From positions 1 through 18,272 of the forward strand of contig DAOWLL010000002.1 in assembly GCA_030641945.1 (NCBI GenBank): DNA of 18,272 nt, in the 5' to 3' direction. The notes under the pieces were generated by a model. It ran no database searches. It worked only from the letters and a program-made list of their open reading frames with translations, and was not told where the DNA came from. The DNA is from Gammaproteobacteria bacterium. GTDB taxonomy: Bacteria; Pseudomonadota; Gammaproteobacteria; SZUA-229. Both the position numbers and the translations under genes were made by a program. Shown in pieces: positions 2,972-18,078 of this stretch (its first letter is position 1; each line of letters begins with the position of its first letter).

Positions 2972-3082
2972 TCTGTAATAGTCAGAATTCAATCCAGTTG
3001 AATTTAGTCACTTCGCTTCATCCATGCGATGGGGCTGTTATCTCAAACATGTGATTAACCGCAGAGGCGCGGAGACGCAGAG
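2969..3082 (+). repeat. Long inverted repeat, copy 1 (left flank of trhA-grx)
   Basis: Starting exactly at the ycaO stop codon, this segment matches the reverse complement of 4853-4968. Shared blocks include GTAATAGTCAGAATTC near the outer edge, ATCCA, GTTATCTCA, ACATGTGATT and the 8-nt-unit run CCGCAGAG-GCGCGGAG. By eye identity is roughly 80% with small indels. The outer ~88 bases look unlike the common GC-rich repeats next to them, so this is a distinct sequence joined to them. Confidence 0.7.
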
Positions 3083-3207
3083 TTTTTTTGATTGTTGTAG
3101 GAGCGGTTTTAACCGCGAACCAACGGGTGTGTCTACGATCAGCAGTGTTCGCGGCTAAAGCCGCTCCTACGAAAACCTGTAATAACCTCTGCGCCTGTGC
3201 GGTGAAA
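3057..3207. repeat. Nested palindromic element: 8-nt-unit arms around a REP pair
   Basis: The outer left arm (3057-3082) holds three 8-nt units CCGCAGAG, GCGCGGAG, ACGCAGAG. Its inverted partner is at 3186-3207 (CCTCTGCGCCTGTGCGG). Inside sit two facing REP-like sequences. The whole can fold as a long cruciform or as an RNA hairpin between ycaO and trhA, and may serve as a bidirectional terminator or RNA stabiliser (inference). Confidence 0.75.
3097..3170. repeat. BIME-like pair of inverted REP sequences
   Basis: The left REP (3097-3120) begins GTAG and continues with the palindrome GCGGTTTTAACCGC. The right REP (3147-3170) is its inverted mate, with GCGGCTAAAGCCGC and ending CTAC. The arms agree at 22 of 24 positions and the two changes compensate within each hairpin. 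A 5' GTAG followed by a hairpin is the layout recognised by REP-associated tyrosine transposases (RAYT) in known systems. No RAYT gene is in this window. Confidence 0.75.
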
Positions 3208-4053: not shown

Positions 4054-4686
4054 ATGCGCAATCTACTTATTCTGGCCATTATTGTGGCAGGTGGTTATCA
4101 GCTATATGTTCGATATCAGGCGTATGCCACCGCAGCCTATGATGAAAACGGCAATCCTCTGACGCTGTTGTTCACCTTCAACGGCTGCAAACCGTGTGAT
4201 GATGCAAGGACGTTACTGAAGAAAAGACAGGTTGATTTTGAGGAGTTCAATGTGTCTGACGGAGATGCCCAGGCTGAGAAAATGAAGGCTTATGGCGGAG
4301 GCAGGCTTCTGCCGTACATTGTTACCGGCAACCGCAAACTCTCAGGTTATAACAAGTATGAAATGATAAGCACTCTCGCCGAAGTGCATGGCCAGAAATT
4401 ACTGACCCGGCAGGAACAGAAAATCATGAACACGCATTTTGACTCAGCGGGTAACCCGCGTGTGGTCATGTATGCAACACAAAGATGCGGCTACTGCATC
4501 AAGGCGCGAGAGTATTTTAATGACGAGGGGGTTGAATTCACCGAGTTCGATATCGACAAAAGTGCCGTTGCGAAACGCAACTTCAAGGCACTGGAATCGC
4601 CAGGAACGCCTTTAGTTTATGTCGGCTACAGAAGAGTAGACGGTTTTAACAAAAACAAGCTGGACGAAGCTTTAGCAGCGCTTTAG
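4054..4686 (+). CDS. Membrane-anchored tandem glutaredoxin-like protein
   Basis: A 210-aa protein with one N-terminal hydrophobic helix (about residues 3-17, an uncleaved anchor or signal) followed by two glutaredoxin/thioredoxin-fold domains. Domain 1 has the redox pair Cys45-Lys-Pro-Cys48 and a cis-proline candidate at Pro87 (LLPYIV). Domain 2 has Cys145-Gly-Tyr-Cys148 and Pro186 (GTPLVYV). Each domain then carries a similar Gly-Tyr/Phe-Asn motif (SGYN, DGFN), consistent with internal duplication. With the anchor as drawn, both domains are most simply placed on the periplasmic side, but the few basic residues near the helix make orientation uncertain. The role is presumably thiol-disulfide exchange; no substrate is visible. 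The ATG has a good site (AGGGA, about 5 bases upstream). It probably shares a transcript with trhA, though a dyad between them may set it apart. Confidence 0.8.
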   Translation: MRNLLILAIIVAGGYQLYVRYQAYATAAYDENGNPLTLLFTFNGCKPCDDARTLLKKRQVDFEEFNVSDGDAQAEKMKAYGGGRLLPYIVTGNRKLSGYNKYEMISTLAEVHGQKLLTRQEQKIMNTHFDSAGNPRVVMYATQRCGYCIKAREYFNDEGVEFTEFDIDKSAVAKRNFKALESPGTPLVYVGYRRVDGFNKNKLDEALAAL

Positions 4687-4741: not shown

Positions 4742-4880
4742 TTTCACCGCAGAGGCGCGGAGACGCAGAGGTCGATTATAAATGCAGCGCTTGTAGTTGA
4801 TGCTGGAGATGTTACTTAATATAAATGCAATTGCATAAAATATATTGCATTTCTCTGCAACTCCGCGCCTCTGCGGTAAA
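4742..4880. repeat. Inverted 8-nt-unit repeat element downstream of grx
   Basis: The left arm contains the same 24 bases as the first element (CCGCAGAG, GCGCGGAG, ACGCAGAG at 4747-4770). The right arm at 4853-4880 is its inverted partner (CTCTGCAACTCCGCGCCTCTGCGG). The ~80-base interior differs from the first element: it lacks the REP pair and holds AT-rich sequence, including the palindrome ATGCAATTGCAT (4826-4837) and a nearby TTGCATTT. It sits between the convergent grx and hflD genes. Confidence 0.7.
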
Positions 4881-4968
4881 TCACATGTATGAGATAACTG
4901 TCGCATGGCCTGGATAAAGCGAGTCGGCTCAATTTCAAATGGATCGAATTCTGACTATTACAAATTAG
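4853..4968 (-). repeat. Long inverted repeat, copy 2 (right flank of trhA-grx)
   Basis: The reverse complement of this segment aligns with 2969-3082 over its whole length at roughly 80% identity by eye. It includes GAATTCTGACTATTAC at the outer edge, which is the complement of GTAATAGTCAGAATTC in copy 1. It ends about 10 bases before the hflD stop. Together the two copies enclose trhA and the tandem glutaredoxin in an inverted-repeat bracket of about 2 kb. Confidence 0.7.
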
Positions 4969-5744: not shown

Positions 5745-6098
5745 ATGCTTAACGAGACAGATACCTTTTTCAAGATGCTGGCGGACAGAACCCGCTTGCG
5801 TTGCCTTCTGTTGATGCAGGCAGAAGGAGAATTGTGCGTATGCGAGCTCACGCATGCGCTGAACCTGTCCCAGCCAAAAATTTCACGCCACCTGGCGCAT
5901 TTACGCGAGGCAGGTGTGCTCGTCGCCAGACGTAACGGCACCTGGATGAACTACCGCATTAACCCGGAACTACAGGCCTGGGCTGTTGAAATCATGCAAA
6001 CCACACTCGATGGCGTACGTAACACCGAACCTTTTGTATCCGACAGGAAAATACTCGGCAACATGACTAACCGGCCTGGGCTTGCGTGCTGTGCATGA
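5745..6098 (+). CDS. arsR: ArsR-family arsenite-responsive repressor
   Basis: A 117-aa winged-helix repressor of the ArsR/SmtB family that releases DNA on binding As(III). The N-terminus FFKMLADRTRLRCLLLM is typical. The metal site lies in ELCVCELTHAL (Cys31 and Cys33). The third cysteine found in E. coli ArsR (ELCVCDLC) is replaced by Thr36, which is tolerated because the first two are the main ligands. The recognition helix region SQPKISRHLAHLREAGVLVARRNG is intact. The protein ends in Cys115-Cys116-Ala, possibly extra ligands. It starts at the ATG 5745 without a ribosome-binding site and probably without a 5' leader. Its stop overlaps a 29-codon ORF, followed by the exporter gene, so it forms a classic autoregulated two-gene arsenic operon. 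Confidence 0.92.
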   Translation: MLNETDTFFKMLADRTRLRCLLLMQAEGELCVCELTHALNLSQPKISRHLAHLREAGVLVARRNGTWMNYRINPELQAWAVEIMQTTLDGVRNTEPFVSDRKILGNMTNRPGLACCA

Positions 6099-7789: not shown

Positions 7790-7978
7790 GAAGTATTTAC
7801 TGCCTGTGCTTCTGTTTATGCCCTAAAAATTATTGAATTATGCCGTATATGGGTAAATAGTCCCACGTATTGGCGATGTCAAGTATTGATTGATTTTTAA
7901 TAAAGGGTCTTCACTGCATCAAGTGTGAAAAAAAATCAAATGATTACCACAGAGAACACAGAGGTACTTCGACTGTAT

Positions 7979-8030
7979 GTAGGAGCGGTTTTAACCGCGA
8001 ATTGTTAATGTTCGCGACTAAATCTCCTAC
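7979..8030. repeat. Degenerate REP pair
   Basis: The left REP (7979-8001) shares GTAGGAGCGGTTTTAACCGC with the REP at 3097. The right partner (8011-8030), TTCGCGACTAAATCTCCTAC, has lost about three bases and its inner complementarity compared with the copy at 3147-3170. It is a decaying BIME. Confidence 0.65.
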
Positions 8031-8033
8031 AGT

Positions 8034-8088
8034 GTAGCCCGGATGAAGTGCAACTGTTTAGACCGGACACATGGGTAACGTAATCCGG
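8034..8088 (+). repeat. GTAGCCCGGAT-type REP interrupted by a 25-bp insertion
   Basis: The flanks GTAGCCCGGATGAAGTGCAA (8034-8053) and GTAATCCGG (8080-8088) together give the familiar REP-like form. Between them lie 25 extra bases (8055-8079), beginning TGTTTAGACCGG and ending GGGTAAC. The trinucleotide AAC occurs on both sides of the junction (8052-8054 and 8077-8079). A 5' GTAG start is shared with the other REP class in the window. Confidence 0.5.
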
Positions 8089-8145
8089 TGATTCATGATA
8101 TATGGCTATTGAACCGCTGGATGCCAGCAAGGAACAGGACTTATG

Positions 8146-8219
8146 TCCACAGATAAACGCAGATGAACACGGATGAAAGCGATTTTAAGTTTCTAAATAT
8201 CTGTGTTCATCTGTGGATG
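8146..8219. repeat. Inverted CCACAGAT-type repeat
   Basis: The left arm (8147-8177) is built of CCACAGAT, AAACGCAGAT and GAACACGGAT. The right arm (8198-8219), ATCTGTGTTCATCTGTGG, is the inverted partner. The 20-base interior is AT-rich. Units are 8 to 10 bases long with the same CRCAGA core as the other elements. Confidence 0.65.
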
Positions 8220-8316
8220 TTGTTTTTAAACATTTGCGTGGGGCCGTGTAGCGGCAGGCGGACAAATATTCCCTATTCACCTCTGTGCACTCTGTGCCCT
8301 CTGTGGCAAATATTTT

Positions 8317-14164: not shown

Positions 14165-15925
14165 ATGAGCACGGACCAGGGCGAACATACAGATGTGGGT
14201 CAATACTACAGGCGGCTGTTAGCGCTGGCTTTTGTTCACTGGAAGATTTTTTCTGTATCAATCGTCGGTATGATTCTTGTTGCTGGCACGGATACTGCTC
14301 TTGCCGCCTTCATGAAGCCATTAATGGATGATGGCTTCGTAAACCGGGATCTTGAAACAATACGTCAACTTCCCCTGATACTTATCGGTATATTTGTCGT
14401 ACGTGTGTTTGCGATATTTATTTCCATGTATTGCATCAGCTGGGTTGGACGGAAAGTTATCATGGTGTTGCGCGAGAGAATGTTCAGCAAGCTTTTGCTG
14501 TTACCAAAAGATTTCTATGACAGGGCAACCAGCGGCGAAATAATTTCCAAGTTTACATACGACGTAGAACAGGTTGCCAATGCATCTACCAAGGCAATCA
14601 CCATAATCGTGCGTGACACCTTTACGGTGATTGGAATATTGGCCTGGATGTTTTACCTCAGCGTATCTTTGACACTGGTGTTGCTTACAACAGGCCCATT
14701 GATTGCAATACTCATCAGTCTTGTAACAAAGAAATTCAGAAAACTGAGCAAGCGAATTCAAAGCAGTATAGGCGATGTTTCCAGGATCGTTGAAGAGTCG
14801 ATAAAAGCACAAATCGTCGTCAAGGTTTTTGGTGGACGTGATTACGAGGAATCACAGTTTGAAAAAATCAACGACCAGAACCGTCGCCAGAACATGCGCA
14901 TGATTGCAACTCAGGCACTGAGTACACCAATAATTCGCCTGATTGTCGGCATCTGACTGGCTGTAATCATCTACCTCGTCACCAAAGATGAAAAGATGAG
15001 CATTGTTACACCCGGAACATTCGCTTCCTACATGGTTTCACTGACCTTTTTGTTCGGGCCTGTCAAGCGATTAGCTGATGTAAATGTTGATTTACAACGG
15101 GGAATCGCCGCTGCTGAGAGTGTTTTCAAGCTGACGGACCTTGATAGTGAGCAGGACAATGGAACTTATACTGCTGAACGTGTTGATGGGGACATCGAAT
15201 TCAGTCATGTTGGCTTTCGTTATAGCAGCGCAAAAGAAGCGGCACTGGTTGATATCAAGCTTGATATCAAGGCAGGTGAGACAGTCGCTTTTGTCGGCAG
15301 ATCAGGCAGCGGCAAGTCGACATTACTTCACTTGCTGCCGCGGCTATATGAAGTGGGTGAAGGTTCTATTACGCTCGACGGTCATGATATTCGTGATTTC
15401 AAACTGGAAAACCTGCGCAGCCATATAGCGTTTGTCGGTCAGGATGTGGTGCTTTTTAATGACACTGTCGCGCACAATATTGCCTATGGATCAATGCGCG
15501 ATGCTGATATAAGCCAGATAGAGCAGGCCGCCAGCTCCGCTTATGCCGACGAATTCATCAGGGAGCTCAAACACGGCTACCAGACAATTGTTGGAGAGCG
15601 CGGCTTGATGCTGTCGGGCGGACAGCGTCAACGCATCGCAATTGCCAGGGCATTGCTTGCGAATGCCCCGGTATTGATACTGGATGAAGCAACCTCGGCG
15701 CTCGATACAGAATCTGAAAGATTTATCCAGTCTTCACTGGAAGCGCTGATGAAAAACCGTACAACACTGGTTATCGCGCATCGGCTTTCAACGATTGAAA
15801 ATGCAGACAAGATCGTTGTGCTGGATGCAGGAAAAATTGTCGAGACGGGTACCCATCAACAACTGCTTGATATAAATGGACAGTATGCTGTGCTTCACCA
15901 GATGCAGTTTGAAAATCAGGCCTGA
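14165..15925 (+). pseudogene. msbA: msbA lipid A flippase with one in-frame TGA
   Basis: MsbA is an essential ABC exporter that flips lipid A-core across the inner membrane. Read through, this gene encodes 586 residues (E. coli 582) with every block intact: YCISWVGRKVIMVLRERMF, DFYDRATSGEIISKFTYDVEQVA, TKKFRKLSKRIQ, Walker A GRSGSGKST, Q-loop VGQDVVLFND, signature LSGGQRQRIAIARA, Walker B VLILDEATSALD and the H-loop IAHRLST. Codon 264 (14954-14956) is TGA. The 263-codon piece (14165-14956) ends inside a transmembrane helix (LIVGI-stop-LAVIIYLV). The same frame continues without any indel, with a possible restart ATG at 14996 leading to 15925. E. coli has Ala there, so a small residue is expected; GGA or TCA to TGA is a one-base change. 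The final TGA overlaps the lpxK ATG. Possibilities are a base error, readthrough (TGA followed by C) or real loss. Confidence 0.9.
14954..14956 (+). other. Premature TGA codon within msbA
   Basis: The codon is TGA followed by CTG. A C after TGA is the leakiest stop context known in bacteria. The genome uses TGA as a genuine stop in lpxK, kdsB and arsR in this window, so it is not a reassigned code. Confidence 0.9.
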
Positions 15926-16914
15926 TGAAAAGACTGGATCATTACTGGTATAGCCAGAATCCAGTAGCCTGGGTGCTGTTGCCGTTATCCTGGCTATTCT
16001 GCGCTGTATCGGTTCTGCGGCGTTTCATGTATTCAACTGGACTGCTGCCAGGCTATGCCATGTCAGTACCGGTTATTATTGTTGGCAATATTTCTGTCGG
16101 CGGTACAGGTAAAACGCCCCTGTTGATTGGTCTATGCGAAATTCTGCATCAACATGGCCTCAAACCCGGTGTTGTCAGCCGCGGATATGGCGCCGCAATA
16201 AGCGGTGAATACTCGGTTGCAGCAAATGATGATGCTGCAACTTGTGGAGATGAGCCGCTGCTGATAAAGCAACGCACAGGATGCCCTGTGATAATTGGCC
16301 GGGACAGGGTCGCCGCAGCAAAAAAGCTGTTGGCAGAAAATGATTGCGATGTCATTCTCAGCGATGATGGCATGCAGCATTATCGATTGAAAAGAGATAT
16401 CGAAATTGCGGTTGTCGATACGCAAAGAAAATTTGGTAACGGATTTTGCCTTCCTGCAGGTCCTTTACGCGAACCCGAATCAAGACTGCGCAGCGTAAAT
16501 ATGGTTGTTCATCACGGTAATTCCGGCGATAAATACCATTTTTCTCTCAAATTTGAACAAGCAGTTAACCTGGCAACAGGGGAAAACAGAAAGCTGGAAT
16601 CGTTTACAACCGGGATGGTTCATGCTGTCGCAGGCATCGGTCATCCTGAGAGATTCTTCAACCAGTTACGGGCCCAGGGGCTGGAAGTGATTGAACATGC
16701 CTTTCCAGATCATCATGTATATACATCCAGTGATATTGATTATGCAGATAATTCATCAATACTGATGACGGAAAAAGATGCGGTTAAATGCAAACGCCTG
16801 CAACCGACCATGAACTCTGGCGGTATAACTGAAAATACCTGGGCTGTGCCGGTGAGCGCAATAATATCAGCCCAGCTTGGCTATGATTTGATTGAACTGA
16901 TCAAGCAGTGTTGA
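15925..16914 (+). CDS. lpxK: LpxK, tetraacyldisaccharide 4'-kinase
   Basis: A 329-aa inner-membrane-associated kinase that phosphorylates the 4' position of the tetraacyldisaccharide-1-phosphate precursor to form lipid IVA. An N-terminal membrane helix (about 15-35, VAWVLLPLSWLFCAVSVLRRF) is followed by the P-loop VGNISVGGTGKTPL. Further family blocks are VSRGYG, GDEPLLI, VIIGRDRVAAAKKLL, DVILSDDGMQHYRLKRDIEIAVVD, GFCLPAGPLREP and FPDHHVYTSSD, plus MTEKDAVKC. The start ATG overlaps the stop of msbA (TGATG) and the stop overlaps the ATG of ycaR, so translation is coupled along the operon. No defect is seen, in contrast to msbA. Confidence 0.96.
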   Translation: MKRLDHYWYSQNPVAWVLLPLSWLFCAVSVLRRFMYSTGLLPGYAMSVPVIIVGNISVGGTGKTPLLIGLCEILHQHGLKPGVVSRGYGAAISGEYSVAANDDAATCGDEPLLIKQRTGCPVIIGRDRVAAAKKLLAENDCDVILSDDGMQHYRLKRDIEIAVVDTQRKFGNGFCLPAGPLREPESRLRSVNMVVHHGNSGDKYHFSLKFEQAVNLATGENRKLESFTTGMVHAVAGIGHPERFFNQLRAQGLEVIEHAFPDHHVYTSSDIDYADNSSILMTEKDAVKCKRLQPTMNSGGITENTWAVPVSAIISAQLGYDLIELIKQC

Positions 16915-17090
16915 TGAATAAGAAATTACTTCATATCCTGGTTTGCCCGCTATGCAAAGGTAAACTTCAATACAATAAAAAAAATGCTGAGCTTGAATGC
17001 CGCCATGACAATCTCGCATTTCCGCTTCGTAACGGCGTACCCATTTTGCTTGAAATGGATGCCCGGCAACTCACACCAGAAAATAAATAG
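16914..17090 (+). CDS. ycaR: YcaR/Trm112-like small zinc-ribbon protein
   Basis: A 58-aa protein of the Trm112p-like (UPF0434) family: LLHILVCPLCKGKL carries a CPxC zinc-knuckle-like pair, followed by LECRHDNLAFPLRNGVPILLEMDAR. E. coli YcaR is about 60 aa and sits at the same place. The family member Trm112 partners methyltransferases in eukaryotes; the bacterial role is unclear. Only three cysteines (Cys11, Cys14 and the Cys of LECRHD) are visible, so full zinc coordination is not certain. The start is the ATG overlapping the lpxK TGA (16912-16914). Upstream GTG and TTG codons in frame are less likely. It lies between lpxK and kdsB, the normal order. Confidence 0.92.
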   Translation: MNKKLLHILVCPLCKGKLQYNKKNAELECRHDNLAFPLRNGVPILLEMDARQLTPENK

Positions 17091-17122: not shown

Positions 17123-17878
17123 ATGACTGAACAATTCAATATCGTTATACCTGCCCGTTATGACTCCAGCCGGTTTCCAGGAAAACCGCTGGCGGATATT
17201 AATGGTAAACCAATGATCCAGCGTGTTTACGAAGCAGCGGTGGATGCGGGCGCCAGTGAAGTGGTTATCGCTACTGACAGCACCCTGATCGGCATGGCTG
17301 CAGAAGAGTTCGGTGCTACGGTATGTATGACACTGGAGGAACACGCATCAGGAACCGACCGTTTATGCGAGGTCGTCGACAAATTGGAATGGGCAGACGA
17401 TACCGTCGTGGTTAACGTGCAGGGCGATGAGCCATTGATGCCATCGACGATAATCAACCAGGTTGCTGTTGACCTGATAAAAAATAATGAAGCTGGTTGC
17501 GCCACGCTCTATACAGGTATCTCGCACGAAGATGCCAGTGATCCAAACATCGTTAAAGTGGTTACAGATGCAAAGGGTTTTGCCCTGTACTTCAGCAGGT
17601 CAGTCATACCGTATATTCGCGATACCGATGATGCAGCAGTCACCGAGCTTGTTTATAAAAGACATATTGGTCTTTATGCGTATAGAGTTGCCTTGCTTAA
17701 ATCATTTCGGACGATGAAACCCTGTGAACTTGAGCAAGCTGAGAAACTTGAGCAACTCAGATTAATGTGGCACGGTACAGCAATCCATGTTGCACAGGCC
17801 GCTTCGATTCCCGGGCATGGGGTAGATACACCGGAAGACCTCGAAAGAGTCAAAGCCGCAATTGCACCAGATTTTTGA
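17123..17878 (+). CDS. kdsB: KdsB, CMP-KDO synthetase
   Basis: A 251-aa cytoplasmic enzyme (3-deoxy-manno-octulosonate cytidylyltransferase) that activates KDO with CTP for attachment to lipid IVA. The nucleotide-binding start IVIPARYDSSRFPGKPLADINGKPMIQRVYE, VVIATDS, EHASGTDRLCEVVDKL and VVNVQGDEPLMPSTII are all present, followed by the family end blocks YFSRSVIPYIRD, HIGLYAYR, ELEQAEKLEQLRLMWHG and GHGVDTPEDLERVK. Its ATG is 32 bases after ycaR, with only a weak ribosome-binding site in the gap. It is the last gene of the lipid A/KDO run before a repeat-containing spacer. Confidence 0.96.
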   Translation: MTEQFNIVIPARYDSSRFPGKPLADINGKPMIQRVYEAAVDAGASEVVIATDSTLIGMAAEEFGATVCMTLEEHASGTDRLCEVVDKLEWADDTVVVNVQGDEPLMPSTIINQVAVDLIKNNEAGCATLYTGISHEDASDPNIVKVVTDAKGFALYFSRSVIPYIRDTDDAAVTELVYKRHIGLYAYRVALLKSFRTMKPCELEQAEKLEQLRLMWHGTAIHVAQAASIPGHGVDTPEDLERVKAAIAPDF

Positions 17879-17950
17879 AAGCGCATTTCAAACAACTATC
17901 TTTTAGCCAGACTGATTGAGATCGGCTACTATGATTCCGAATGAACTATT

Positions 17951-18046
17951 TTAGCCGCAAAATACGCAAACAGCGCAAATAGGTTTTTCTGTAGTAGAAA
18001 TAGCACAGTACGTAATCTTCGCGTAATTTGCGTTATTTGCGGCTAA
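17951..18046. repeat. Inverted CCGCAAAA-type repeat between kdsB and rlmL
   Basis: The left arm TTAGCCGCAAAATACGCAAA plus CAGCGCAAAT (17951-17980) is mirrored by CTTCGCGTAATTTGCGTTAT plus TTGCGGCTAA (18017-18046). The left arm reads as units CCGCAAAA, TACGCAAA, CAGCGCAAA, the same 8-9-nt layout as the other elements. It could act as a terminator for the lipid A operon. No U tract is visible. Confidence 0.65.
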
Positions 18047-18078
18047 TACTTAATGAGTTCAAAAATTAGAGATATGAC

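Follow-up and report, generated by a model that had tools for sequence, protein, structure and literature searches.

The lipid A flippase MsbA is described by the protein profile TIGR02203, which has a curated cut-off of 602 bits, and by solved chains such as 3b5x and 7sel, and its gene usually lies beside lpxK and kdsB. Two further described systems are close to an msbA gene with an in-frame TGA. One is recoding of the selenoprotein type, in which an in-frame UGA is accompanied by a downstream hairpin, and the other comprises the TGA-reassigned genetic codes (tables 4 and 25), in which TGA stands for a sense codon. The msbA gene analysed here matches the MsbA model in two successive parts and differs from it by one internal stop. 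It resembles selenoprotein-type recoding in having an in-frame UGA followed by a predicted hairpin, but departs from it in that no selenocysteine machinery scores over cut-off in its genome, no Cys is found at the site in 29 other loci and the hairpin is partly common to relatives with a sense codon. Likewise, it resembles the reassigned codes in that TGA takes the place of a sense codon, whereas its own genome uses TGA as a regular stop, has RF2 and contains in-frame TGA only rarely in the conserved open reading frames (ORFs) sampled.

The DNA analysed, referred to here as the window, comprises 18,272 nucleotides, the entire contig C533 in the draft metagenome genome of an uncultured gammaproteobacterium. 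This draft has 2,710,206 bases in 634 contigs, with 86.03% completeness and 3.53% contamination. Metagenome genomes of uncultured Gammaproteobacteria are the nearest named records among the best 80 of 372 confirmed matches. CALLCZ010000110.1 (90%) is the closest, and CP070838, named 'Thiotrichales bacterium isolate bin102', is also among them; the search may leave out records very close to the window's own genome. A literature search on msbA nonsense mutation and readthrough returned nothing on point, PMC8607383 being a review of drug resistance, and no matching paper was found on stop codons in metagenome-assembled genomes.

The msbA Reading Frame and Its Neighbourhood

Translation of positions 14,165–15,925 of the forward strand gives an msbA frame that runs from an ATG at 14,165 to a terminal TGA at 15,923–15,925 and contains a single internal stop. 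This is the TGA at 14,954–14,956, in the place of residue 264, which is Gly, Ala or Ser in homologues. The first 263 codons (14,165–14,953) and the last 322 codons with the normal stop (14,957–15,925) are open on either side of it, without any indel. The two parts match consecutive positions of TIGR02203, 2–249 with 240.2 bits and 253–571 with 480.1 bits, and it is because of the single internal stop that neither passes the cut-off alone. An intact copy found in the protein database, P0001, passes it at full length (740.5 bits), and its residues 13–582 align to chain 3b5x_A. Downstream of the TGA, the translation retains the motifs GRSGSGKST, LSGGQ, LILDEA and AHR, which we take to be the Walker A, signature, Walker B and H-loop motifs, respectively. 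Residue 264 of the window MsbA corresponds to residue 262 of the 582-residue chain 3b5x_A, in an ungapped region that presumably forms transmembrane helix 5.

As each half is an open frame and the stop is followed by an ATG, at 14,996, it could be proposed that MsbA is made here as two polypeptides, the second one starting at that position or nearby. This is exceedingly improbable, as the break would fall within the region aligned without gaps to solved MsbA, neither half reaches the MsbA cut-off by itself, and a stop is present in the aligned parts of none of the 29 other loci.

The genes that follow on the forward strand are intact: lpxK (15,925–16,914; TIGR00682) and kdsB (17,123–17,878; TIGR00466) are both over their curated cut-offs, and the ORF of 58 amino acids at 16,914–17,090 encodes a small protein matching Trm112p; the name YcaR used for it previously comes from the initial annotation. 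The gene order with lpxK and kdsB is the one usual for an MsbA lipid A flippase. With collinear open halves, ABC-transporter motifs in place and intact neighbours, the initial annotation was right in describing an in-frame TGA that interrupts an otherwise preserved msbA.

The window also contains repeated intergenic sequences. A palindromic element with inverted ends lies at 17,940–18,055, between kdsB and the next gene, and partial similar copies of it are found in five other records of the own genome (62 sampled) and in 2 of 60 stretches of G002, a genome of the same genus. A dispersed repeat family occupies 3,040–3,200, 4,743–4,895 and 7,956–8,001, with matches in 37 of the 60 G002 stretches and, counting the window, in 12 of the 62 own-genome records. 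Between two ORFs, at 7,790–8,316, there are repeat pieces in common with 15 other own records of the 62 sampled and with 13 of the 60 G002 stretches.

Codon 264 in Relatives and in Near-Identical Copies

The comparison with close relatives that the initial annotation had proposed was carried out by a DNA search for msbA in 58 genomes, including the own one, of which 48 matched, that is, 47 of the 57 relatives. The 29 relative loci given out of these 47 were all read, and the codon aligned to residue 264 is a sense codon in every one of them (Ala in 19, Gly in 9 and Ser in 1). None of the 29 has Cys or Trp at this site or an internal stop in the aligned parts of msbA. Six genomes of the same genus were searched besides the own one; five contain a full-length msbA match (L010–L014), all with Gly at the site and no gap there, and the sixth (G005, 69% complete) gave merely a 26-base match. 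In G004, a second msbA-lpxK-kdsB end is found at a contig end (C12, L066, positions 1–2,529), collinear into lpxK-kdsB and 87% identical to the other G004 copy over 735 bases. It was rejected as a paralogue, and it probably represents a second strain or species in the bin.

At the protein level, the 8000 database candidates sharing most words with MsbA were scored and 7,999 passed; in the best 120 of these, the column of residue 264 contains Gly in 110 and Ala in 10, with no Cys among the 120. This count is evidence on the residue only, because full-length database proteins cannot show a stop. The closest of them, P0001 (586 amino acids, on a contig 8,372 bases long), is the same as the window MsbA at 585 of 586 residues, the sole difference being Gly at 264. 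P0002, whose contig measures 7,133 bases, also has Gly at 264, together with three further differences, and after these two the nearest proteins among the best 120 of 7,999 are at most 92% identical to the window MsbA. Neither is encoded letter for letter by the window, and their contigs differ from it in size. Their source is given as '-', a mark that is also given to the window's own proteins, so that they could come from the same sample or from another one. Therefore, an intact msbA exists within the same species or very close to it.

Selection on Both Sides of the Stop

L010 is the relative that the DNA search ranked nearest, and Nei-Gojobori dN/dS values between it and the window msbA are 0.051 for the 263 codons upstream of the stop and 0.055 for the 322 codons downstream; against L012 and L013, the part before the stop is saturated and gives no value. 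Judged by these ratios, purifying selection on msbA is strong both before and after the TGA, and any release of its C-terminal part from selection has been too brief to be visible. With dN/dS near 0.05 on both sides, it follows that the lesion is either an error or very recent.

Search for a Second msbA and Possible Tolerance of a Fixed Stop

A second copy of msbA elsewhere in the genome had been suggested as a solution to the puzzle of a stop in an essential gene. The C-terminal half of msbA gives 25 matches in the own assembly, 24 of them besides the window copy and 27–48% identical to it, and the N-terminal half gives only one other match, 20% identical. For the best two of the 24, L002 and L003, MsbA is the top NCBIfam model, but at 395.5 and 359.4 bits they score far under the cut-off of 602 and were rejected as a second msbA; we take them to be other half-size exporters. 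No second msbA over the MsbA cut-off was thus found in the assembly, which is 86% complete, so that a copy could be missing.

These data bear on the reading that the stop is true and fixed, or common, in the strain, where it would be tolerated through a second msbA, another flippase or reduced lipid A export. Such a reading could draw on the incompleteness of the assembly, on the two half-size exporters with MsbA as best model, although below cut-off, and on the fact that a few bacteria survive without MsbA. It is nevertheless improbable, as the search gave no second gene above the MsbA cut-off, the three genes that follow (lpxK, Trm112p-like and kdsB) are intact, and the gene itself displays no further decay, with 585 of 586 residues equal to the intact copy and low dN/dS on either side of the stop.

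TGA Usage and Recoding Machinery

In the own genome, TGA is an ordinary stop. Among 82 sampled ORFs whose match to a G002 homologue reaches to 5 residues or fewer from the C-terminus, 42 end in TAA, 24 in TGA and 16 in TAG, and prfB, encoding RF2, is present over cut-off. A genome-wide reassignment of TGA was therefore rejected, given these 24 of 82 ORFs ending in TGA and just 2 in-frame TGA per 29,788 aligned codons. An ABC-transporter match on contig C200 that spans three TGAs was also considered as a case of recoding and discarded, since an ordinary ABC ATPase ORF of 234 amino acids ends inside the match and all three TGAs lie at or beyond the stop of this ORF.

As for selenocysteine, the 86%-complete assembly gives four matches to tRNA-Sec and five to SelB, none of them over cut-off, and the four weak tRNA-Sec matches overlap genes for tRNA-Ser, -Trp, -Leu and -His. 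A selenoprotein recoded at UGA was rejected both on this machinery and on the relatives, where Cys or UGA occurs at the site in 0 of 29 other loci. Programmed readthrough with a stop conserved in relatives was rejected in the same manner, the stop being present in 0 of 29. None of the 17 tRNAs found in the own genome has a UCA anticodon, which is weak evidence because this tRNA set is plainly incomplete. As a separate observation, the 210-residue protein encoded at 4,054–4,686 of the window has two glutaredoxin-like parts, the first of which matches the Uxx-star (seleno)protein family with 70.8 bits against a cut-off of 66, in a genome with no Sec machinery over cut-off.

Of 200 shuffles of the 60 bases that start at the msbA TGA, 199 are predicted to fold less well than the actual sequence (z −2.69). 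For the corresponding bases of the five same-genus relatives, which all have a sense codon, the z values are −1.57 (L010), −2.36 (L011), −0.94 (L012), −1.35 (L013) and −1.30 (L014). A similar inner hairpin is predicted in L010 and L011, and L012, L013 and L014 are predicted to fold otherwise; therefore, the hairpin is not linked to the stop, and it is not a conserved feature of the genus.

The initial annotation had raised readthrough as a possible case of recoding in an essential gene; here, a functional insertion of Sec, Trp or another near-cognate residue at the TGA would yield full-length MsbA. The z value of the hairpin, which only L011 approaches among the five same-genus counterparts, and the C that follows the TGA, a leaky context for termination, would speak in its favour. 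The presence of a similar hairpin beside sense codons in L010 and L011, the different folds of the other three, the lack of tRNA-Sec and SelB over cut-off and of a UCA anticodon among the tRNAs found, the presence of RF2 and the regular use of TGA to end other genes speak against it, as does the finding of Gly, Ala or Ser, and never Cys or Trp, at the site in 29 of 29 loci. Readthrough is thus not supported and has a very low probability. We give equally little credence to a strain that truly has the TGA in its sole msbA and survives by near-cognate readthrough of TGA-C, perhaps aided by the hairpin.

Frequency of Similar Lesions in the Assembly

To place the msbA stop among other lesions, 62 records of the own genome (356,935 bases, 13% of it) were set against 60 stretches of G002 (1.2 Mb in all), one of which was picked to cover msbA, so that the msbA TGA is counted by design. 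Of 1,120 G002 ORFs, 102 had a best match of at least 60% identity, amounting to 29,788 aligned codons with three internal stops (two TGA and one TAA) and one apparent frameshift. These counts are a lower bound, because only the best aligned piece per ORF was scanned and stops 8 residues or fewer from its ends were left uncounted. The two stops other than that of msbA belong to L169 (TAA) and L185 (TGA). The former is in frame at position 9,764 of contig C280, at residue 28 of 284 aligned, in an ORF that is open in G002 and whose G002 product has no Pfam match. The reverse comparison, in which 96 of 290 own ORFs matched G002 over 29,310 codons, gave two stops, both TGA and both in ORFs without a Pfam match. 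These two and the L185 TGA were rejected as gene lesions, as their ORFs have no Pfam match and look spurious. The apparent frameshift, in L164 (contig C225, about 5,808–5,829, against a G002 ORF), is probably not within a gene, being upstream of the true start, because it lies before the HolC domain of the ORF.

With three stops per 29,788 codons, one of them included by design, such a stop is uncommon in this assembly. Real genes of the sample seldom carry a lesion, the L169 TAA being the one candidate besides msbA, and no pattern specific to TGA emerges. This rarity indicates that errors do not abound in the assembly, and a true rare variant thus keeps some probability; the survey neither shows an error-prone assembly nor excludes a single base error.

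Origin and Meaning of the msbA Stop

We are confident that the msbA TGA is an isolated nonsense change of a single codon, likely a base error or the call of a minority strain and otherwise a very recent mutation, in a population whose msbA is otherwise intact. According to this model, the TGA would have entered the assembly consensus of one contig through a base error or the call of a minority strain or, failing that, would be a nonsense mutation that some cells acquired very recently, and the msbA of the population, otherwise intact, would encode an ordinary lipid A flippase of 586 amino acids. The initial annotation had named both a base-call error and a very recent mutation, and both fit the intact P0001 and the selection on both sides of the stop. 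The fragmented state of the assembly, with its 634 contigs, also speaks for this model. As to the choice between them, we infer that an error or a minority-strain consensus is most likely, with a very recent true mutation ranked next.

When an essential gene of a draft metagenome genome has a lone in-frame stop, the first check to make is therefore against near-identical copies elsewhere. Should the msbA stop be real and subject to readthrough, MsbA would be a naturally occurring example of an essential membrane protein that depends on leaky termination.
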